Shown here piece after piece: positions 8,800 to 21,649 of a stretch of 64,000 bases of DNA. Made by a program: the position numbers and the translations under genes. This stretch comes from Micromonospora sp. NBC_01796. Lineage in GTDB: Bacteria > Actinomycetota > Actinomycetes > Mycobacteriales > Micromonosporaceae. Numbering within the stretch: position 1 is the stretch's first letter; each line of letters opens with the position of its first letter. Under the pieces are notes generated by a model that saw only the letters and a list, made by a program, of their open reading frames with translations, was not told the origin of the DNA and searched no databases. The stretch spans positions 2,666,001-2,730,000 of the forward strand of contig NZ_CP109078.1 of the NCBI RefSeq assembly GCF_035917455.1. Reading direction: 5' to 3'.

Positions 8800-10077
8800 T
8801 CAGATGTTCAGCAGGCCACCGTTGCGGAGGTTGTCGTCCTTGATCGCGATGAGATTCGCGGAGACGTACGGAATGTTGTGCTTCTGGTGCCACTCACTCG
8901 GGAAGTACGTGACCAACCGCGACGCCTGGAATCGGCATTTTATTTCGGGCACGAACCGGGAATAGTTGGCGTCCGTGAAATACCAGAACGAGTTCTCGTT
9001 GTAGAACGCCACATGGGTCGGATCCTGGTAGGCACCCCGACCGTCGGTGCTGGGCGTCAGCGACAACAGCATCCCGTTCGGCGCGAGCAGGCGGTACAAC
9101 TCGTTGAACAGTGCGATCTTGTCCGGGACGTGTTCCAGGAAGTCCGCGGCCCGGATGACTCCGACGCTGTTGTCCGGAAGATCGACACCCTTCGTCACAT
9201 CGCAGACCATGTCGACACCCGACCCGTCATGGTAGTCCAGACCGAGATACCCTTCCGGCTTGTTGTGGGCCGCACCCAGGTCGAGCGCCAGAAGCCCCTG
9301 CCGCCGCGACCAGGTCAGCGCATTCTGTTGAATGTTCCGGTCATAGATCTCCACCGTACGCTGCTGGATGCGGGCGTTGACATCCGGAATGCGCTGCGTG
9401 TTCTTGGCATGCATGCGCTGCAGGTACAGGCATTTCTGAATGTGGTGGAACTCGCTCACCTGGTAGATCCGAGCCATGAGGTCGGCGTCGTCCGCGACGT
9501 CGAACGACTCGTTGTATCCGCCGACCTTCTCGTAGATGTCCCGCCGGAAGGCCCGCACGTGGTTCGGCGCGTACCAGATGTAGCTCACATTGTGCGGCGT
9601 CGGCGGCAACGCCCGGCAGACCAGCACCTCACGGCCGTCCACCTTCTCGTCGTAGTGCCGCCAGCCGAACGAGGTCGCGAAACGGTCTTCGCACCGACTG
9701 CCGTCCTCCTGGATCTGCGCGGTGTCGCTGTAGACGAACCCGACCTCCGGGTTGGAGTCGAAGGCGTCGACGATCTCCTGCAGACAGTCGCTGCTGAGCA
9801 GGTCGTCGTCGTCGAGCTCGACCAGGATGTCCCCGGCGGCCTCGGCGCAGGCGTACGCCTTCACGGCGCCGACGCCGTTGAGGTTGTCCTGGACGATGAG
9901 CCGGATCCGGTCGTCGTGGCTCTCGGGCCGCCAACGGGACCCCTGGTTGAGCACGACCACCCATTCCCAGTCGGTGAAGGTCTGCGCGACCAGCGATCGG
10001 AAACATTCGTCGATGAAACGGGTACGGTTGCTCCCCGTGAAAACCGTTACGCGCGGCGTACGCATTGAGCCGGTCAC
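8800..10077 (-). CDS. Glycosyltransferase family 2 / SAM-methyltransferase fusion
   Basis: 425 aa bifunctional enzyme. Residues about 8-230 form a GT-A glycosyltransferase of family 2 with the nucleotide-sugar/metal motif ELDDDDLLSS (about 87-97) and the acceptor-side NHVRAFRRDIYEKVGGYNE segment. Residues about 262-420 form a class I methyltransferase (LALDLGAA..., VIRAADFLEHVPDK, LLAPNGMLL). Third gene of the collagen-like operon: its GTG at 10077 overlaps the stop of the TPR lipoprotein gene by 4 bp (GTGA); an in-frame ATG lies at 10065. Context suggests it decorates the collagen-like protein or an attached glycan, but no acceptor is shown. No membrane span, so it acts in the cytoplasm. Confidence 0.85.
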   Translation of the reverse strand: MTGSMRTPRVTVFTGSNRTRFIDECFRSLVAQTFTDWEWVVVLNQGSRWRPESHDDRIRLIVQDNLNGVGAVKAYACAEAAGDILVELDDDDLLSSDCLQEIVDAFDSNPEVGFVYSDTAQIQEDGSRCEDRFATSFGWRHYDEKVDGREVLVCRALPPTPHNVSYIWYAPNHVRAFRRDIYEKVGGYNESFDVADDADLMARIYQVSEFHHIQKCLYLQRMHAKNTQRIPDVNARIQQRTVEIYDRNIQQNALTWSRRQGLLALDLGAAHNKPEGYLGLDYHDGSGVDMVCDVTKGVDLPDNSVGVIRAADFLEHVPDKIALFNELYRLLAPNGMLLSLTPSTDGRGAYQDPTHVAFYNENSFWYFTDANYSRFVPEIKCRFQASRLVTYFPSEWHQKHNIPYVSANLIAIKDDNLRNGGLLNI

Positions 10078-10691
10078 CTGTCCGCCGGGGACGGAGAGGT
10101 CGAGGCGCGGTACTTCGCCGGCACGGCTGAGGCGAGCCCCTTGTCGAGTCGGACCGCCGTGTTGAAGGCGTCGCGCGCTTCCGCCTCGTCGCCGGCCTGG
10201 GACAGCAGTATGCCCAGTCGGAGGTAGGCGGTTGACGACTTGTCGTCGATCGACACAACCTTGCGGTAAATGTCCATCGACGCCTTCGGGTCCTTGCCTT
10301 CCAGCGCAATGGCCTTGTTGTAAAGGGCCGGCTTGTAGTTGGCGTCGGTCTCCAACGCCTTGTCGTAGTTGGTGACCGCCTCGTCGGCCTGGTTACGCGA
10401 CTGGGCGATGAAACCCAGGTTGAACCAGGCAAACTTGTTGTTGGTCTCGGCTGCCAGCACCTTCTCGAAGGTGCCCTTCGCCTCGTCGAATTTACCGGCC
10501 TGGCCCTGCTCGACTCCGAGATTCAGCAGGTCCGCCGCAGCGGCTCCGGTATCGGTGCCGCCATTCGCCTTGTCACTGCTGCTGGAACTGCTCGCCTGCG
10601 GCTTCTCAGCAGGCTCGTCGCTGCATGCCGCGACTCCGGTCAGCAGGACCGCACCACAGGCGAGTGACCCGAATATCTGACGCATGCTCAT
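10074..10691 (-). CDS. TPR-repeat lipoprotein
   Basis: 205 aa. The N-terminus has a lipoprotein signal peptide with lipobox LTGVAAC (lipidated Cys at about residue 23), a Ser-rich spacer and at least four tetratricopeptide repeats (about 52-190; e.g. NNKFAWFNLGFIAQSRNQADEA and NYKPALYNKAIALEGKDPKA). It should sit on the outer face of the membrane as a protein-interaction scaffold. Its ATG at 10691 overlaps the stop of the collagen-like gene (ATGA), and its ribosome site AAGGAGG is formed by the last codons of that gene; a second ATG at 10685 is better spaced. Likely assembles or anchors the collagen-like protein (inference). Confidence 0.85.
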   Translation of the reverse strand: MSMRQIFGSLACGAVLLTGVAACSDEPAEKPQASSSSSSDKANGGTDTGAAAADLLNLGVEQGQAGKFDEAKGTFEKVLAAETNNKFAWFNLGFIAQSRNQADEAVTNYDKALETDANYKPALYNKAIALEGKDPKASMDIYRKVVSIDDKSSTAYLRLGILLSQAGDEAEARDAFNTAVRLDKGLASAVPAKYRASTSPSPADR

Positions 10692-13171
10692 TTCTCCTCC
10701 TTGACGATAACGGGGCGCTCCGGCTTGCTGGTCGGCCGGCTGGGCTTAGTACTGTTGGCCTTCGCCCGGCCGGACGTGTTGGCCGGAGCCCTCAACGCCA
10801 GCGGTGCGGCGAGCGAGATGCAGGACACCCAGATGTCGGCACCTCCGCCGGTGAAGGTGAACTGGTAGCCACTGGTCGAGAGCGGCTGGATCAGCACCGG
10901 GTTGACGCCCGCACCTGCGAGCTGATAGCCGGTCCCGACGGCAATGTCTCCGGCCTGGCACCCGAAATCAACGGGGGTGTCAGCAATAACAGTCAGCGGG
11001 CCCTGAATGTAGGCGGCATCAATTCCGTTGCCGGAAACTCCCTGCGGTCCCTGCGCGCCCGTGTCGCCCTGCGGTCCTTGTACGCCCTGCAAACCCAGCG
11101 CACCCTGGGCGCCCTGGGGACCTTGAGCACCGGTGTCGCCCTGGAAGCCCTGAGCACCTTGGATTCCCTGGGGTCCTATGTCGCCCTGAGCGCCCACGTC
11201 GCCCTGGGTGCCCTGGAATCCTTGAGCACCCACGTCGCCCTGGGCACCCTGGGCACCCTGGGCACCCTGGAAACCTTGAGCACCTTGAACGCCCGCGTCG
11301 CCTTGGGTGCCCTGAAGACCTTGAGTACCCTGCACCCCTTGAACGCCCTGGGCACCCACGTCGCCCTGAGCACCCTGAACCCCCTGGGCGCCCACGTCGC
11401 CTTGAGGACCCTGTACTCCTTGAGGACCTTGAACTCCCGCATCGCCCTGGAAACCCTGGGCGCCTTGAACGCCCTGAAAACCTTGGGCGCCCTGCGGACC
11501 TTGAGCACCCTGAGCACCCACGGCGCCTTGAGCACCCACATCGCCCTGGGGGCCTTGAGCTCCCACGGCGCCCTGAGCACCCACATCACCCTGGGGGCCC
11601 TGAACACCCGCGACGCCCTGAGGACCTTGAACCCCCGCATCGCCCTGGAAACCCTGAACACCCTGCGGACCTTGAGCACCCACGGCGCCCTGAGCACCCT
11701 GAGCACCGACGGCGCCCTGAGCACCCACATCACCCTGGGGGCCCTGAACACCCGCGACGCCCTGAGGACCTTGAACCCCCGCATCGCCCTGGAAACCCTG
11801 AACGCCCTGCGGACCTTGAGCACCCACGGCGCCCTGAGCACCCTGAGCACCCTGAGCACCGACGGCGCCCTGAGCACCCACATCACCCTGGGCGCCCTGA
11901 ACACCCGCAGCGCCCTGAGGACCCTGAACCCCCGCATCGCCCTGGAAACCCTGAACGCCCTGCGGACCTTGAGCACCCACGGCGCCCTGAGCACCTTGAG
12001 CACCGACGGCGCCCTGGGCGCCTACGTCGCCCTGAGGACCCTGAGCACCTACGTCACCCTGGACCCCCTGGGGACCTTGAACACCCGCACCGCCCTGGGC
12101 ACCCTGGAAACCCTGAGCGCCCTGCACGCCTACGGCGCCCTGAGGACCCTGAACGCCCGTACCGCCCTGGGCACCTTGAATCCCCTGGGGACCTTGAACA
12201 CCCGCACCGCCCTGCGTGCCTTGGAAACCCTGAGCCCCCTGGACGCCCACATCGCCCTGCGTACCCTGAGCACCCACGGCGCCCTGAGCGCCTTGAACGC
12301 CCACGTCCCCCTGGGCACCTTGAACCCCCTGGGGACCTTGAACACCCGCACCGCCTTGCGCGCCCTGGAAACCCTGAGCACCCTGAGCACCCTGAGCACC
12401 TGGAACGCCCTGGGCGCCCACATCGCCCTGGGGACCTTGAGCACCCACGTCCCCCTGCGGACCTTGAACGCCCGCACTGCCCTGGGGACCCTGGAAACCT
12501 TGAGCGCCCTGAACACCTTGAGCCCCCTGGGCACCCACGTCACCCTGGGCTCCTTGAACACCCTGGGCTCCTTGAACACCCTGAGGACCTTGAACACCCG
12601 CACCGCCCTGGGCACCCTGAAGACCTTGAGCGCCCTGGGCACCCACGTCACCCTGGGCACCTTGAACACCCTGAGGACCTTGAACACCCGCACCGCCCTG
12701 CGCGCCCTGCAGACCTTGAGCGCCCTGCAGACCTTGAGCGCCCGGAACACCTTGAGCGCCCTGGGCGCCCACATCGCCCCGAACGCCCTGAGGACCATGA
12801 ACGCCCATATCGCCTTGGAAACCTTGGAAACCTTGAGCACCTTGAACGCCCTGGGGGCCCTGAGTGCCCTTGGAGTCATGCGGGTATTTGCCCCCGTCGT
12901 GCCCACCCCAGGGGCCCTGCCAGCCCTGCGGGCCGTAGTCAGGTCCACCGCCGTCGTCGCGGACAGTCGCCCAGGACATCGGCCATCCGCCGTACTGGCC
13001 GAATGAACCGGGCGTACCGATGTGCACGTCCTGCGCAGACGATTTCGCTTCCACCGGTTCCGCTGCGACTGCGGGCCCACCGGTCATCCCGACTGCCAGC
13101 AGGACAGAACTCAGCCCTGAAGCGGCATGGCCATGCTTCGGCCCTCGCCGCAGCCGTCGCTTGTTGCTCAT
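10688..13171 (-). CDS. Secreted collagen-like protein (Gly-X-Gln repeats)
   Basis: 827 aa from the ATG at 13171, which has GGAGGGG 4 bases upstream (the frame extends to 13201). Residues 1-38 are an Arg/Lys-rich signal peptide ending AVA-AEP. A short Gly/Trp-rich region is followed by about 205 uninterrupted Gly-X-Y triplets (residues 102-716). Y is nearly always Gln ([15 protein letters not shown]), broken by GDV, GDA, GGA and AVG-type triplets. The last 111 aa form a two-Cys beta-type domain ([14 protein letters not shown] ... DIWVSCISL) of a kind seen in secreted actinobacterial proteins, then a basic Pro/Lys tail. There is no LPXTG or membrane anchor. First gene of a three-gene overlapping operon. 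Expected to form trimeric fibres on or outside the cell. Confidence 0.9.
11024..12868 (-). repeat. Collagen-like Gly-X-Y coding repeat array
   Basis: 1845 bp of 9-bp periodic DNA encoding 205 Gly-X-Y triplets. Higher-order copies are visible: a block beginning CCACATCACC recurs at 11581, 11725 and 11878, i.e. periods of 144 and 153 bp, which differ by exactly one triplet codon set (9 bp). Identity between the first two copies is nearly complete over more than 100 bp. The array produces long spurious open frames on the opposite strand. Confidence 0.9.
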
Positions 13172-13540
13172 GACCCCTCCAGAGAGTCGCCCCAGATACA
13201 CGCAGAGCTACTTGCCGGTGACATAACGTCACCTGGCAGGCGATTTGCAGCGTATCTGAACGATTCGTCGAACGAGAGAGGTTTTAGGACCAGCTAGGCG
13301 GATTACGACCAAAGTGGATTTTCTTCGCGATCAGCCGGATCCCACCCCCGACCGCAGCACGATCCCCAGGCACAGCGCCCAGCACCTCGTGCCCAACCGG
13401 GACCCGCACCAAGCGCACCCGCGTAGCCACCGAAACTCGGCGCGATCTTGCAGTTGTGGTGCCCGAACAGCGTTGATGATCCGCTTTTGCGTACCGCCAC
13501 AAGTGCAAGATCGACGCGCTGCTGGGGGCGGGAGGAGGGG
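13172..13540. other. Intergenic region: collagen-operon promoter and palindromic element
   Basis: This 369-bp gap separates the collagen-like gene start from the end of the GNAT gene on the same strand. The part next to 13171 must hold the collagen-operon promoter; no box is called with confidence, but it is more A+T-rich than its surroundings (13235-13330). The part next to 13540 holds the inverted repeat listed separately and a G-rich tract. Short open frames here have no coding support. Confidence 0.6.
13443..13513. repeat. Palindromic element, CGATCTTGCA(C/G)TTGTGG arms, copy 1
   Basis: Left arm 13443-13460 and right arm 13496-13513 are inverted copies matching at 16 of 18 positions around a 35-base centre. 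The right arm is the same sequence as the right arm of the element at 21761-21834. It lies at the 3' side of the GNAT gene and is followed by a G-rich tract. Confidence 0.8.
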
Positions 13541-16868: not shown

Positions 16869-19800
16869 CTACGCTAGCGGCTGAGCGGCCGACCCGGACT
16901 CGGCCAGACCGGCAGAGTCGGTCAAACCCGCCGCACCCGCCAGACCGGCGGCGTCGGCCAGACCGGCCGCGCGGGCCAGGGCGGCCGAATCCGACAGGGT
17001 GTCGCCGCCCGGAGACTCGTCGACCCTCGGGGCGGGCAGGCGCGACGCCAACTCGGCGCAGAGCGCGTCCACCCCGGCCCGCTCGCTCGTCTGCTGCGTC
17101 GAGTACGCCAACCGCACCGCCTCCGCGGCGGCCACCCCGGCCTCCGCGTACTCGCCCATCGCGGCCAGCGTCTCGGCCAACGTCCGGCGCGCCAGCACCA
17201 CGCTCCGTACGTCCTCGGCCGATGCCGCCACCGCCCGACGCGCCCAGTCCAGCGCCTGCACCGGCTGACCCTCGGCGAGCAGCGCCGAGGCGTACCGGGC
17301 CAGGGTCTGCTGGCGGGAGAAGAGCAGCGACGGGGTGCTCGCACTGGTCGCCAGCGGGGCCAGCAGCCCCACGGCGGTGCTCGGGTCACCGGCGGTCAAC
17401 CGGGCGGTGGCCAGCAGCACCCGGGGACCGACCTGCACCGGAGCCAGCGAGTTGTGCGGCTCGACCGCAGCCAGGACCGCCCGGGCGTCCCGCTCGGCCG
17501 TCTCCACGTCGCCCCGCTCCAACGCCACAAAACCGCGCAACGTCCCGGCCAGACCGGTCAGCAGCGGGTGCGCGGTCCGGTCGCCGTACGACAGGGCGTC
17601 GGTGAGCAGGTCGGCGGCGTGCTCCGGCTCGCCCAGCCCGCGCGCCACGACTCCGCGTACGACCAGGGCGAAGCCCCGGCCCCAGTCGTCGGAGACGGCC
17701 GCGAAGTCCCGGTACGCCCGGCGGGCCGCCCGGTCGGACTCGGTCAGCTCGCCCAGTTCGGCGGCGGCGAACGCCTCCACCGCGCGCAGGGTGCCGACCG
17801 CCCACGCCTCCCCGACCCGTTCACCGAACGGCAGGAAGACCCGGGCCAGCCGGCGGGCCTCGGCGAGTCGGCCGGCGAGCAGCCGGGCGAACGCGGTGGT
17901 GCCGCGCAACCAGGCCTGCCCGACCGGATCGTGGGTTTCGGCGAAGAGTCGGGCGGCCCGGCCGAGCACCGCGTCGGTGCCGGCGAAGTCGCCCCGGGTG
18001 GTGGTCACCCAGGCCAGGTTCTGCAACGACCAGGCCTGCCCGCGCCGGTCGTCCGCGGCGAGGTTGACCTGGTACGCCCCGGCGAACCGGCTGCTCGCCT
18101 GGCTCAACCGGCCGTTGAAGAAGTCGCTCATGCCGAGCCGGCGCATCGCCGAGGCCCGGGGCGCCGGCAGGTCGGCGGCGGTGGCCACCTGCAACGCGTC
18201 CTGCCAGGTGTCGACCGCCCGCCGGTGGTCACCGATGGCCTGGTACGCCTGCCCGGCGATGAGCAGTGCCCCGGCCCGTCGGATCGGGTCGTCGGCGGCG
18301 TTGGCGCCGATCTTCTCGGCGAAGGTGAGCGCGTCGGCGGGGCGCCCGATCTGCAACAGGGCGCGGGCGTGGACGAGCTGGTCGGAGCCGGGGACCTCGT
18401 CACCGGCGAGCGCGGCGGCGCGTTCGGCGTACTCGACCGCGAGGGACGGTTCCCCGGCGGCGATCGCTTTCCGGGCGGACCGGTTCAGCGCGCTCACGCC
18501 CAGCGGGGCAACCGTACGGGCCACCGAGTCGGTCCGCAGGCCGACCGCGTCGGCGAGCGCGACGGCCCGTTCGACGTGTTCGGCGACGAACGCGTCCCGG
18601 AGCCCCTCCGGCAGTCCGGACCGGTCCCGGACCACGCCCAGCGCACCATCGACGGCAACCGCACCGTCGGCCGGTCCGAGCCCGTCGGCCGTACGCAGGA
18701 GCCCGTCGGCGGGTTGGGGCAGTTCGCCTGGTGCGGCCCACCGGGCGAGCGCGGCGTGCCGTTCGGCGAGGTCGGCCTTGCCGATCCCGGCGTACGCGGC
18801 CTCGCGCATCAGCGGGGTGGCGAACGTGTAGCCGTCGCGGGTGCGGTGCAGCATCCGGCGTTGCAGGAGTTCCTCGACGGCGCGGTCCAGTTCGCCGGTG
18901 TCGACCGAGGCGGGGCCGCCGTCGCGTCCGGTCCGCCGCTCCCGGAGCGCCTCGAGTGCGCCGGCCGGGACGGTGTCGCCGACGACGGCGGCGTCACGCA
19001 GCACCGATCGGGCGTCGGCGGGCAGTGCGTCGATCCGGGCGGCGAGGACCGCGGCCAGGTCACGGGAGAGCAGCCGGCTGCCCAGCGATCCCGGCACCAG
19101 CCGCCAGGTGACACCGGTGCCGGCAACCGGCTGGGTCGCCTGTTCCCGCTCGCTCACCTCGACCAGGGCGCCGCGTTCGATCAGCAGGGTGACGAGTTCG
19201 GCGAGGTAGAACGGGTTGCCCTGGGCGGTGGCGAGCAGCCGGTCGGTGTCGGCCTGCGGCAGCCGGCCGCCGCCGAGGTACGTGGTGAGCAGCCGGGCCG
19301 CGTCGGCACCCCGCAGCGGTGGCAGGGCGTTGACCTCGGCGTCCGCGACCCCGGTCAGGGCTCCGGCCGTACGGACCAGTTCGGGGCGGCCGAGCAGCAG
19401 CGCCAGCACCGGTCCGGTCAGTCGGGACAGGGTCTGGCCGAGGGCGTCGACGGTTTCCGGGGTGGCGTCGTGCAGGTCGTCGACGATCACCACCATCGGT
19501 GTCTCGGCGGCGAGCGCGCTGAGCAGGTCGGAGACCGCTGCCGGTACGGCACCGGCGTCCGGGACCGGCCCGCTCGGCGCCCACTCGGCGGCACCCACCG
19601 GTACGCCGGCAGCCGGCGTCAGGTCGCCGTACCCGAGCAGGGCGAGGAGCAGGTCGGAGGGGATCGGTGGCTGGTCGGGGCGGAACCGGGCCAGTCGCTG
19701 GCCGAGCCGGCGCAGCCGTTCCTCGACCACCGGCCGGGTGAGCGCGGGGTTCCCCCCGCTGGGCAGGCCGACGGCGGCGCGTACGAGGTCGGCCAGCGGC

Positions 19801-20729
19801 GCCAGCCGGCGACGCTCGCCGAAGGCGGCACAGCGTACGGAAAGCACCCTGGCGCCGGTGTGCGCGGCGAACCGCCCGGCGCCGACGTCGTAGCCGGCGG
19901 CCAGCCGTTCGACCTCGGCCGCGAACCGGGACTTGCCGACCCCGGCCTCGGCCGTCATCAGCAGCACCCGGGACTCGCCCCGGTCGATCACCTCGGCGAG
20001 CCGGCCGGCGACCCGACCGATCTCGGTTTCCCGGCCGACGAAGGGTGCCTCGTCGCCGAGCCCGGACCGGGTGCCGGGGGCGTCGAGCAGACCGAGCAGT
20101 TCGTACGCCTCGACCGGCTGGCGCTTGCCCTTGAGCCGCAGCGGGCGCAGTTGCCGCCAGGAGGAGACGTGCCGGGTGACGGCGGCGGTGCTGGCACCGG
20201 CGTAGACCGCGCCGATCGCGGCGGCGTCGGCGAGCCGGGCGGCGGTGTTCACGGTGTCGCCGATGACGGTGTACTCGATCGCGGCCTGGATGCCGGCGAC
20301 CACGTCGCCGGTGTTGAGCCCGACCCGCAGGCCGAGCGGGGCACCGCCGCCACGTTCGTCGTCGAGCACCCGGCGGACGGCCCGCTGCATGGACAGGGCG
20401 GCCCGTACCGCCCGTTCGGCGTCGTCCTCGTGGGCGACGGGGGCACCGAAAACGGCCATGATCCCGTCACCGGTGAGCTTGTCGACGTGGCCGCCGAAGG
20501 TCTTGACCGCACCGGCCAGGGAGGCGAGGACCCGGTCGGTGACCGCGCCGACCCGCTCGGGGTCGAGGTCCTCCGACCAGGAGGTGAAATCGGACAGATC
20601 ACCGAAGAGGACGGTAACCACCCGGCGTTCGGCCGCCGGCAGGGTCGCGGCAGCCGGCAGCGCGGCACCACAGTTGTGGCAGAACCGCGCGCCGGGCACG
20701 GCGACGGTTCCACACACCGGGCAGGTCAC
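16869..20729 (-). CDS. Nucleotide-cyclase / AAA ATPase / TPR regulator
   Basis: 1286 aa from the GTG at 20729. N-terminal zinc ribbon (C3, C6, C17, C20), class III adenylate/guanylate cyclase domain (about 37-220) with both metal aspartates visible (LFGDLSDFT and LTGDGIMAVFG) and the YTVIGDTVNTAARL segment, then an AAA/STAND-type ATPase (P-loop AEAGVGKS; VVIVDDLHDAT as Walker B) and a long all-helical TPR-like C-terminal half. This cyclase-ATPase-TPR design is a known actinobacterial and cyanobacterial signalling type; no membrane span. The GTG overlaps the stop of the upstream hydrolase gene (GTGA), implying translational coupling. Ala-rich low-complexity tail. Confidence 0.87.
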   Translation of the reverse strand: MTCPVCGTVAVPGARFCHNCGAALPAAATLPAAERRVVTVLFGDLSDFTSWSEDLDPERVGAVTDRVLASLAGAVKTFGGHVDKLTGDGIMAVFGAPVAHEDDAERAVRAALSMQRAVRRVLDDERGGGAPLGLRVGLNTGDVVAGIQAAIEYTVIGDTVNTAARLADAAAIGAVYAGASTAAVTRHVSSWRQLRPLRLKGKRQPVEAYELLGLLDAPGTRSGLGDEAPFVGRETEIGRVAGRLAEVIDRGESRVLLMTAEAGVGKSRFAAEVERLAAGYDVGAGRFAAHTGARVLSVRCAAFGERRRLAPLADLVRAAVGLPSGGNPALTRPVVEERLRRLGQRLARFRPDQPPIPSDLLLALLGYGDLTPAAGVPVGAAEWAPSGPVPDAGAVPAAVSDLLSALAAETPMVVIVDDLHDATPETVDALGQTLSRLTGPVLALLLGRPELVRTAGALTGVADAEVNALPPLRGADAARLLTTYLGGGRLPQADTDRLLATAQGNPFYLAELVTLLIERGALVEVSEREQATQPVAGTGVTWRLVPGSLGSRLLSRDLAAVLAARIDALPADARSVLRDAAVVGDTVPAGALEALRERRTGRDGGPASVDTGELDRAVEELLQRRMLHRTRDGYTFATPLMREAAYAGIGKADLAERHAALARWAAPGELPQPADGLLRTADGLGPADGAVAVDGALGVVRDRSGLPEGLRDAFVAEHVERAVALADAVGLRTDSVARTVAPLGVSALNRSARKAIAAGEPSLAVEYAERAAALAGDEVPGSDQLVHARALLQIGRPADALTFAEKIGANAADDPIRRAGALLIAGQAYQAIGDHRRAVDTWQDALQVATAADLPAPRASAMRRLGMSDFFNGRLSQASSRFAGAYQVNLAADDRRGQAWSLQNLAWVTTTRGDFAGTDAVLGRAARLFAETHDPVGQAWLRGTTAFARLLAGRLAEARRLARVFLPFGERVGEAWAVGTLRAVEAFAAAELGELTESDRAARRAYRDFAAVSDDWGRGFALVVRGVVARGLGEPEHAADLLTDALSYGDRTAHPLLTGLAGTLRGFVALERGDVETAERDARAVLAAVEPHNSLAPVQVGPRVLLATARLTAGDPSTAVGLLAPLATSASTPSLLFSRQQTLARYASALLAEGQPVQALDWARRAVAASAEDVRSVVLARRTLAETLAAMGEYAEAGVAAAEAVRLAYSTQQTSERAGVDALCAELASRLPAPRVDESPGGDTLSDSAALARAAGLADAAGLAGAAGLTDSAGLAESGSAAQPLA

Positions 20730-21649
20730 GGGAGGTCCAACCCACCGGCCCCCGGCCCGTGTTCCCGAATTTCGGGATCGGGCCCGTTTTCCCGGGCGAG
20801 ATGGTCGACCGACCCGTTCTCCCGGGCGGGGACTGACCCGTCTTCCCGGGCGAGATAGTCGAGTTGGGCGCGGACGGACCATTCGGCGGCCCACCAGAGC
20901 GACCGGTCGACGTCGGCGTAGACGGCGGCCACGACCTCGGGCGCGGTGGTCGCACCGGCGGCGACCGCCTGGCGTACCTGGTCCAGCCGGGCCCGCCGGT
21001 GGGCCAGGTAGAACCGGGCCGCCACGGCGCAGTCGGCGAGCGCCGGGCCGTGTCCGGGCAGGGCCGGCAATCCGTCGTACGCGGTGAGCAGCTCCAGGCT
21101 GTCGAGGTACTGCCCGAGGTCCCCGTCCGGATGGGCGACCACGGTGGTGCCCCGACCGAGGATGGTGTCCCCGGTGAAGACCGCCGCCGGTGGTTCCGTC
21201 TCGATCAGGTCGGACGGTTCGACCAGGTAACAGACCGAGTCGGCGGTGTGTCCCGGCGTGTCCAGTGCGGCGAACTCCAACCCGTACGCGTCGAAGCTCT
21301 CGGTCGCCACGAGGGGGTCGGTGCCGACGCAGTGGGCCGCGTCCGCCGCGAGTACGCGGGTCCCGCCCAGCAGGTCGGAGAGGCGACGGGCGCCCTCGAC
21401 GTGGTCAGCGTGCCCGTGGGTGATCAGGATGAGCCCGATCGGCCCCTGGGCGGCGATCGCGGTGAGGTGTCCCTCGTCCAGCGGTCCCGGATCGATCACG
21501 ACCCCGGCGCGCTGGCCGGCCGCTCGCAGAAACCAGGTGTTGGTGCCGTCGAGGGTCATCGGACCCGGGTTCGGTGCCCGTACCAGCGTCACCCAGCTCG
21601 GTAGCTGGTCGGCGAGCGCCGCAGCCGGCGCGATCACGTGGCCAGTCAT
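20726..21649 (-). CDS. Metallo-beta-lactamase-fold hydrolase (Rv3677c-like)
   Basis: 307 aa from the ATG at 21649. The zinc motif HGHADHVEG, a downstream DTPGHTADS histidine, the GDTILGRG aspartate and the late PGHG histidine are all present, so the protein should be an active binuclear metallo-hydrolase of the LACTB2/glyoxalase II-like group; an RNase or thioester role is possible. Neighbours match M. tuberculosis Rv3677c-Rv3678c-Rv3678A. The last about 50 aa are a repetitive extension (ARENGS-type units) not typical of the family. It overlaps the cyclase gene by 4 bp. Confidence 0.85.
   Translation of the reverse strand: MTGHVIAPAAALADQLPSWVTLVRAPNPGPMTLDGTNTWFLRAAGQRAGVVIDPGPLDEGHLTAIAAQGPIGLILITHGHADHVEGARRLSDLLGGTRVLAADAAHCVGTDPLVATESFDAYGLEFAALDTPGHTADSVCYLVEPSDLIETEPPAAVFTGDTILGRGTTVVAHPDGDLGQYLDSLELLTAYDGLPALPGHGPALADCAVAARFYLAHRRARLDQVRQAVAAGATTAPEVVAAVYADVDRSLWWAAEWSVRAQLDYLAREDGSVPARENGSVDHLARENGPDPEIREHGPGAGGLDLP
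20765..20860 (-). repeat. Imperfect tandem units at 3' end of hydrolase gene
   Basis: Three copies of a unit containing CCCGT(T/C)(T/C)TCCCGGGCG, spaced about 24-33 bp, encode the repetitive C-terminal tail (AREDGS, ARENGS, ARENGP) of the metallo-hydrolase. Confidence 0.65.

Follow-up and report, generated by a model that had tools for sequence, protein, structure and literature searches.

The stretch of DNA analyzed here (hereafter the window) comprises 64,000 nucleotides of the Micromonospora sp. NBC_01796 genome (NZ_CP109078.1, positions 2,666,001 to 2,730,000) and carries three overlapping genes, encoding a collagen-like protein, a tetratricopeptide repeat (TPR) lipoprotein, and a fusion of a GT2 glycosyltransferase with a methyltransferase (GT-MT). 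Comparative analysis revealed that the GT-MT gene is linked, in actinobacteria and in phages, to collagens whose Gly-X-Y triplets are rich in Gln at the Y position. A functional partnership between the GT-MT and the Gly-X-Gln collagen is well supported by these comparisons and is regarded as very probable, and the GT-MT probably modifies the collagen with an O-methylated deoxysugar. The pair is apparently an undescribed, dedicated way of decorating collagen outside animals; no description of this cluster was found in one open-access literature collection.

Linkage of the GT-MT to glutamine-rich collagens

Relatives of the GT-MT protein were collected from named-species genomes by a search in which collagen played no part in the selection. 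The search gave 149 relatives, 80 of which were kept; they belong to Micromonospora, Plantactinospora, Streptomyces, Kitasatospora, Frankia, Saccharothrix, Saccharomonospora, Acidimicrobiaceae, and other actinobacterial metagenome-assembled genomes, and the named relatives closest to the protein of the window among these 80 are those of Plantactinospora and Micromonospora. A Gln-rich run, defined as at least eight Gly-X-Y triplets in the flank with Gln at 30% or more of the Y positions, was found at 72 of the 80 GT-MT loci and in none of 20 controls (arbitrary 20-kb stretches at round coordinates in eight GT-MT genomes; Fisher 6e-15). Without the Gln condition, the figures were 74/80 and 1/20, respectively. 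Conservation of the neighborhood, which the initial annotation had proposed as a test among Micromonosporaceae, therefore holds far beyond that family. Several draft assemblies break within the collagen repeat, and four of the eight loci without the run (L034, L058, L068, and L090) are cut off within 1.1 kb in the direction in which the collagen gene is expected, while three others (L045, L089, and L091) hold a Gly-X-Y protein that is short or low in Gln. Relative to the GT-MT gene, the collagen is encoded upstream in the same orientation at 34 of the 80 loci, downstream and convergently at 30, and downstream in the same orientation at 8.

At the genome level, the GT-MT was found in 7 of 151 genomes of relatives and collagen in 34, namely in all seven GT-MT genomes versus 27 of the 144 others. 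Among 396 genomes of the phylum, the GT-MT was found in 6 and collagen in 129 (6/6 GT-MT genomes versus 123/390 others), and collagen was present in all 30 GT-MT genomes searched. The converse fails, with the GT-MT being absent from 27 of the 34 and 123 of the 129 collagen genomes, respectively. The genome containing the window is a single 8.56-Mb contig with one full-length GT-MT copy.

This patchy distribution (7/151 relatives and 6/396 genomes of the phylum) would be expected if a Gly-X-Gln collagen and a GT-MT had been joined once in a mobile unit and then co-inherited without any working link. Carriage of the GT-MT by phages is consistent with such hitch-hiking, as is its sequence conservation: among the six other positive relatives, the GT-MT is 94–96% identical to that of the window in five, representing more than one genus, and 77% identical in one, and such near-identity across genera, while most relatives lack the gene, suggests transfer. 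However, proximity is kept although the gene order varies, and GT-MT proteins of only about 50% identity (L089, L091, and L093) still lie near a Gly-X-Y protein, albeit one with less Gln in L089 and L091. Hitch-hiking is thus considered very unlikely. Three local arrangements were observed besides. Micromonospora parva contig NZ_JNZS01000013.1 carries two GT-MT loci (L019 and L066) separated by about 34 kb; their GT-MTs share 93% and 76% identity with that of the window, and each has its own collagen. The GT-MT of Micromonospora tulbaghiae (L028), beside collagen-like open reading frames (ORFs), contains one in-frame stop, a possible pseudogene or sequencing error. At L099 (G060), two ORFs that resemble an IS3-type transposase pair by eye lie approximately 0.7–1.8 kb upstream of the GT-MT gene, between the collagen and TPR genes.

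The composition of the helices distinguishes linked from unlinked collagens. The median fraction of Gln at Y was 0.68 in 85 GT-MT-linked helices (L107 and L108, whose contigs match those of L091 and L058 in length, left out) versus 0.08 in 34 helices from GT-MT-negative genomes, which came from 33 of 38 unlinked loci and probably include some spurious frames (e.g., L136, L146, and L149). Within GT-MT genomes, a comparison of 48 stretches from 30 genomes, a subset of the collagen matches, gave a median of 0.64 in 21 linked helices versus 0.00 in 25 others (highest 0.43), with some spurious frames and two duplicates (L294 within L331) among the latter. Triplets reading GFQ or GYQ were present in 61 of the 85 linked helices and in none of the 34 unlinked ones. 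No linked helix lacks Gln, whereas Asn is missing from 32, both Lys and Arg from 34, and both Asp and Glu from 11. The six linked helices with a Gln fraction at Y below 0.4 are those of L029, L052, L054, L089, L091, and L109, and lower Gln contents are found at the most divergent GT-MT loci. A two-Cys C-terminal domain is common to many of the GT-MT-linked collagens. The same kind of head follows a Thr-rich helix in L137, L142, and L160, in whose genomes the GT-MT was not found, suggesting that the GT-MT follows the helix type and not the head. Among other collagens observed, the second one of L099 has Gln at 100% of its Y positions; a different GT2 adjoins another Thr-rich collagen, L143; and the Streptomyces loci L322 and L331 encode small proteins in tandem, all of which have 18–19 Gly-X-Y triplets and a hydrophobic stretch at the N-terminus.

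The GT-MT and collagen in phages and on plasmids

At least 595 IMG/VR contigs encode GT-MT relatives, of which 80 were kept (L204–L283; 49–65% identity). At least 10 Gly-X-Y triplets with Gln at 44–80% of the Y positions lie near the GT-MT gene in 17 of the 80 phage loci, some of which are near-copies, and a laxer run test was positive at 20/80 phage loci versus 3/20 arbitrary actinobacterial stretches. Forty of the 80 records, in a choice leaning to long and non-duplicate contigs, were searched whole. Collagen was found in 14 of them: in all 12 of at least 35 kb, a line drawn post hoc and a set that includes near-copies (e.g., L221 and L222), and in 2 of the 28 shorter ones. The controls, which were not host-matched, comprised all 16 contigs of at least 35 kb among 160 loci found via nrdB and phoH of Synechococcus phage S-CRM01; S-CRM01 itself (L413) was left out because it carries a GT-MT, and the RecE-like gene of L209, used as another control query, matched only itself. 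Collagen was present in 3 of these 16 controls, and the family cut-off was passed by 10 of the 12 long phage records versus 1 of the 16 controls. No GT-MT was found in the 16 controls, an empty search that alone carries little weight.

In L209, the GT-MT gene is preceded by two collagens matching PHROG tail-fiber families, the second of which shares a 4-bp overlap with it, and is followed by an endolysin-like gene. By eye, neither collagen starts with an evident signal peptide, which favors modification in the cytoplasm. S-CRM01 encodes a nearly full-length GT-MT of 39% identity, with Gln-rich collagens about 50 kb away. Long branches in the GT-MT tree obscured the direction of transfer between phages and bacteria. 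A search for plasmid copies gave only partial matches, with approximately 35% identity over the glycosyltransferase half, in four Bacillaceae plasmid records. Two of the three Priestia matches were inspected; they lie among genes for other glycosyltransferases and methyltransferases, accompanied by a single short Gly-X-Y run. On Peribacillus plasmid pB (L112), a relative of the glycosyltransferase domain lies beside collagen-like and BclB-related genes, an FkbM methyltransferase, and nucleotide-sugar genes.

Predicted reaction of the GT-MT and candidate sugar donor

The glycosyltransferase half of the GT-MT shows the features of GT2/GT-A enzymes: the fold, an acidic metal-binding motif, and a candidate catalytic acid. 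Alignment of 43 GT-MT proteins showed that the acidic motif of GT-A enzymes, another pair of acidic residues, a QRxH motif, and the motifs of the methyltransferase are conserved; E87, D89, D91, D92, D196, D197, Q220, R221, and H223 are invariant, and the glycosyltransferase half therefore seems to be selected for catalysis. In the methyltransferase half, for which all 43 members match PF08241, ALDLGAA (264–270) and D281 are nearly invariant and DGRGAxQDPxH is invariant. The AlphaFold model of the GT-MT has a mean predicted local distance difference test (pLDDT) score of 88.7 and a predicted template modeling score of 0.88, being weak near residues 341–370 of the methyltransferase half. Foldseek neighbors of the glycosyltransferase half are chondroitin polymerase (2z86; E 1.7e-14), WrtF, SpsA (1h7q), TarS, and TarP.

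The GT-MT may act as a cytoplasmic two-step enzyme, in which the GT-A half would transfer a sugar from a nucleotide donor to the Gly-X-Gln collagen chain and the methyltransferase half would then O-methylate the transferred sugar. The collagen would be modified before export in bacteria, or before assembly into a tail fiber in phages, and could then trimerize, perhaps through the two-Cys beta head. Judged from sequence and predicted structure, direct modification of the collagen by the GT-MT is moderately favored, and a similar degree of confidence attaches to the sugar, and not the protein, being what the methyltransferase half methylates. The cassette as a whole is best read as a secreted collagen fiber with a dedicated modifying enzyme, direct glycosylation with a methylated sugar being the mechanism that is preferred with reasonable, not strong, confidence.

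Regarding the donor, rml genes lie near the GT-MT gene at 26 of the 80 actinobacterial loci, and rmlA, rmlB, rmlC, and rmlD, for deoxythymidine diphosphate (dTDP)-L-rhamnose, are all present at 18. At many Streptomyces loci, rmlA-rmlC and rmlB-rmlD flank the collagen gene, which is convergent with the GT-MT gene. One representative each of rmlA, B, C, and D passed its NCBIfam cut-off, rmlC narrowly (158.2 versus 155.75). The arrangement of rmlABCD around the collagen and GT-MT genes points to dTDP-L-rhamnose as the donor and makes a methylated sugar plausible; the structure of SpsA, a fold neighbor of the glycosyltransferase half, was solved with dTDP. L-Rhamnose would thus be the best candidate where rmlABCD adjoins, and rhamnose as the sugar in the organism of the window is a tentative, somewhat doubtful extension.

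Several observations weigh against the overall interpretation. No rml gene was found in the window, nor near the GT-MT gene in the 80 phage loci or L284. In the GT-MT tree, from which sequences with stops and those more than 90% alike were dropped, the Streptomyces representatives bearing all rml genes fall in one clade, which may reflect one event, and co-occurrence with rmlD was rejected as uninformative because the gene is too common (133/151 relatives, including 7/7 GT-MT genomes). Frankia locus L051 is a real exception to the linkage, with a GT-MT gene and no collagen run in flanks of 10 kb and 7.8 kb, and the linkage, genome, and helix comparisons all ignore shared ancestry. In the phage records searched whole, 26 of 40 had no collagen, all of them below 35 kb, and enzymes acting on the host surface are also part of the phage repertoire. 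The TPR protein is only a putative anchor, no TPR gene having been detected immediately upstream of the GT-MT gene at 28 of the 80 loci. Finally, 8 of the 85 linked helices, including that of L072, contain neither Ser nor Thr, the residues on which O-glycans usually sit. Modification of the helix itself would therefore call for unusual chemistry, and Thr O-glycosylation as the general chemistry is doubtful.

Helices free of Ser and Thr would pose no difficulty if the GT-MT made a lipid- or wall-linked surface glycan and the collagen were a separate fiber in or on that glycan rather than a substrate. The fold neighbors fit such a role, as they are mostly transferases of polysaccharides or wall polymers (2z86, WrtF, TarS, and TarP), and the two-Cys head could bind a glycan, although its fold matches are weak and non-significant. 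What speaks for the collagen as substrate instead is that the GT-MT tracks the Gly-X-Gln helix type, not the mere presence of collagen or of the C-terminal domain, and that the pair occurs in phages, amid tail-fiber-like genes in L209. A separate surface glycan is hence regarded as unlikely.

All 85 linked helices contain Gln, but some are devoid of Ser/Thr, some of Asn, some of Lys/Arg, and some of Asp/Glu. A speculative reading is that the GT-MT is a collagen-specific glutamine glycosyltransferase, which would place an O-methylated sugar (rhamnose in Streptomyces) on the Gln side-chain amide of Gly-X-Gln triplets, with GFQ/GYQ being preferred. This reading is quite unlikely as it stands; if true, the attachment of glycans to Gln would constitute a novel type of protein glycosylation, common to actinobacteria and collagen-bearing phages. 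The same ubiquity of Gln would also suit a methyltransferase half that methylates the protein itself (e.g., Gln side chains), with the glycosyltransferase half acting elsewhere or mainly docking, and the methyltransferase motifs are conserved to the same degree as those of the glycosyltransferase. Nevertheless, the invariant acidic and catalytic motifs of the glycosyltransferase half speak against a docking role, and GT-MT fusions usually methylate the sugar, so that protein methylation is held to be improbable.

The three-gene unit, known systems and significance

The features of the unit are collected in Table 1. The collagen and TPR genes overlap by ATGA (10691–10688) and the TPR and GT-MT genes by GTGA (10077–10074). 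The initial annotation had described three minus-strand genes joined by such 4-bp overlaps, with the ribosome-binding site of the second gene inside the end of the first, and both points were confirmed (AGGAGGAG at 10701–10694). Its reading of the products also stood: the count of 205 triplets was reproduced, the signal peptide, Cys residues, and lipobox were recognized by eye, TPR models matched the second product, and Pfam models matched both halves of the third. Its description of the system as self-contained was too strong, since the window has no rml gene and the rmlD of the genome lies elsewhere.

Table 1. Coordinates of the collagen, TPR, and GT-MT genes of the window and of their parts
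Feature	Position	Strand	Basis
Collagen-like protein gene, 827 aa (signal peptide, N-terminal linker, Gly-X-Gln-rich helix, two-Cys C-terminal domain)	10688..13171	-	PF01391 (Collagen), 289 bits
Ribosome-binding site GGAGGGG of the collagen gene	13174..13180	-	Sequence
Predicted Sec-type signal peptide, residues 1-37 (...GGPAVAA)	13061..13171	-	Sequence, by eye
205 uninterrupted Gly-X-Y triplets, residues 102-716	11024..12868	-	Sequence
Two-Cys C-terminal domain, predicted six-stranded all-beta head	10814..11023	-	Alignment, structure model
TPR lipoprotein gene, 205 aa	10074..10691	-	Lipobox LTGVAAC, lipid Cys = residue 23; several Pfam TPR models
Ribosome-binding site AGGAGGAG of the TPR gene, within the final codons of the collagen gene	10694..10701	-	Sequence
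GT2 glycosyltransferase-methyltransferase fusion (GT-MT) gene, 425 aa, GTG start	8800..10077	-	Pfam, conserved motifs, structure model
GT-A glycosyltransferase half	9394..10062	-	Glycos_transf_2 (PF00535), 48.7 bits; conserved motifs; Foldseek
Class I S-adenosylmethionine (SAM) methyltransferase half, SAM binding predicted	8842..9300	-	Methyltransf_11 (PF08241), 29 bits (cut-off 21.2)

The window collagen contains the long uninterrupted Gly-X-Y run expected of PF01391 proteins and may form a triple helix. Gln occupies Y in 152 of the 205 triplets (GAQ 63, GVQ 34, GPQ 28, and GFQ 14), and Ser and Thr together account for 11 of the 410 residues at X and Y. In its two-Cys domain, C22, G32, P47, and C68 are invariant across 51 aligned domains, and the model has block pLDDT values of 92–96 across residues 1–70. 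The window's own domain has no Pfam match, and the 51 members give three weak families; a Foldseek search returned nothing at E 0.001, the weak and non-significant matches being resistin, PCSK9, and a pyocin fiber tip. Streptococcal Scl/SclB adhesins resemble the window collagen through the NF038329 model (449.6 bits; cut-off 325), a match that arises via the repeats. Identity as an Scl/SclB adhesin was rejected, because the LPXTG motif of these proteins is missing from the window collagen, and an automatic Scl/SclB name would mislead.

A TPR gene was detected immediately upstream of the GT-MT gene in 52 of the 80 loci. No TPR match was found at the eight Frankia loci checked (L033, L042, L044, L047, L051, L054, L057, and L067) or at several Streptomyces loci, which makes the TPR protein an accessory component. 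Fifty-seven of 59 upstream TPR proteins examined have a hydrophobic N-terminus, with a strict lipobox pattern in 18 (one doubtful): lipoboxes or near-lipoboxes are found in Micromonosporaceae and mostly transmembrane-type helices in Streptomycetaceae. Two unlike anchors thus seem to place the same TPR domain outside the membrane, where the protein, held by its lipid or N-terminal helix, probably holds or escorts the fiber.

Five outside neighbors of the unit (two LysR regulators, a cysteine dioxygenase-like protein, a GNAT protein, and a protein kinase) were compared with 86 other GT-MT loci, many of them short-flanked, and none recurs at E 1e-30 and more than 45% identity. Some small groups of 4–5 Micromonospora loci have a flank in common. 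Elsewhere in the window (16872–20894), a 1341-aa protein combines an adenylate/guanylate cyclase domain, an AAA ATPase, and a TPR/MalT-like region.

Enzymes that decorate bacterial and viral collagens are, to our knowledge, represented by only a handful of cases. Passages of two reports describe BclA of the Bacillus cereus group exosporium as a trimeric stalk of collagen that ends in a C-terminal beta head and bears dense glycosylation with N-acetylgalactosamine-rhamnose-rhamnose-rhamnose-anthrose (PMC10050317, PMC4750369). The present system differs from BclA in its Sec-type signal, Gln-rich helix, head sequence, single GT-MT fusion, and occurrence in actinobacteria and phages. Production of BclA takes place in the mother cell and involves no Sec signal, and its glycans sit on a Thr-rich helix, a helix type to which the composition of the window helix does not correspond. 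Rhamnose genes lie near bclA, a point not found in the passages of either report, and the 18 loci with rmlABCD and a collagen gene, the window not among them, recall this linkage. SgtA-BclA3 of Clostridioides difficile, which like BclA resembles the present system in the way it works, has one glycosyltransferase gene beside one collagen gene; we know of no methyltransferase fusion, TPR partner, or Gly-X-Gln signature in it. According to part of a further report, Mimivirus protein L230 is a virus-encoded lysyl hydroxylase-glucosyltransferase with two activities that modifies viral collagen (PMC9614988). L230 places glucose on hydroxylysine, whereas 34 of the 85 linked helices contain neither Lys nor Arg, and no hydroxylase was recognized by eye among the recurrent GT-MT neighbor clusters inspected.

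Because one sequence-recognizable enzyme family and a corresponding signature in its putative substrate occur in phages as well as in cultured Streptomyces and Micromonospora, the question of collagen modification is directly testable. If the acceptor is Gln, an additional linkage type would be involved, and some phage tail fibers may prove to be glycoproteins. Biomaterials research would also take an interest in a small, portable enzyme able to modify recombinant Gly-X-Gln collagen.

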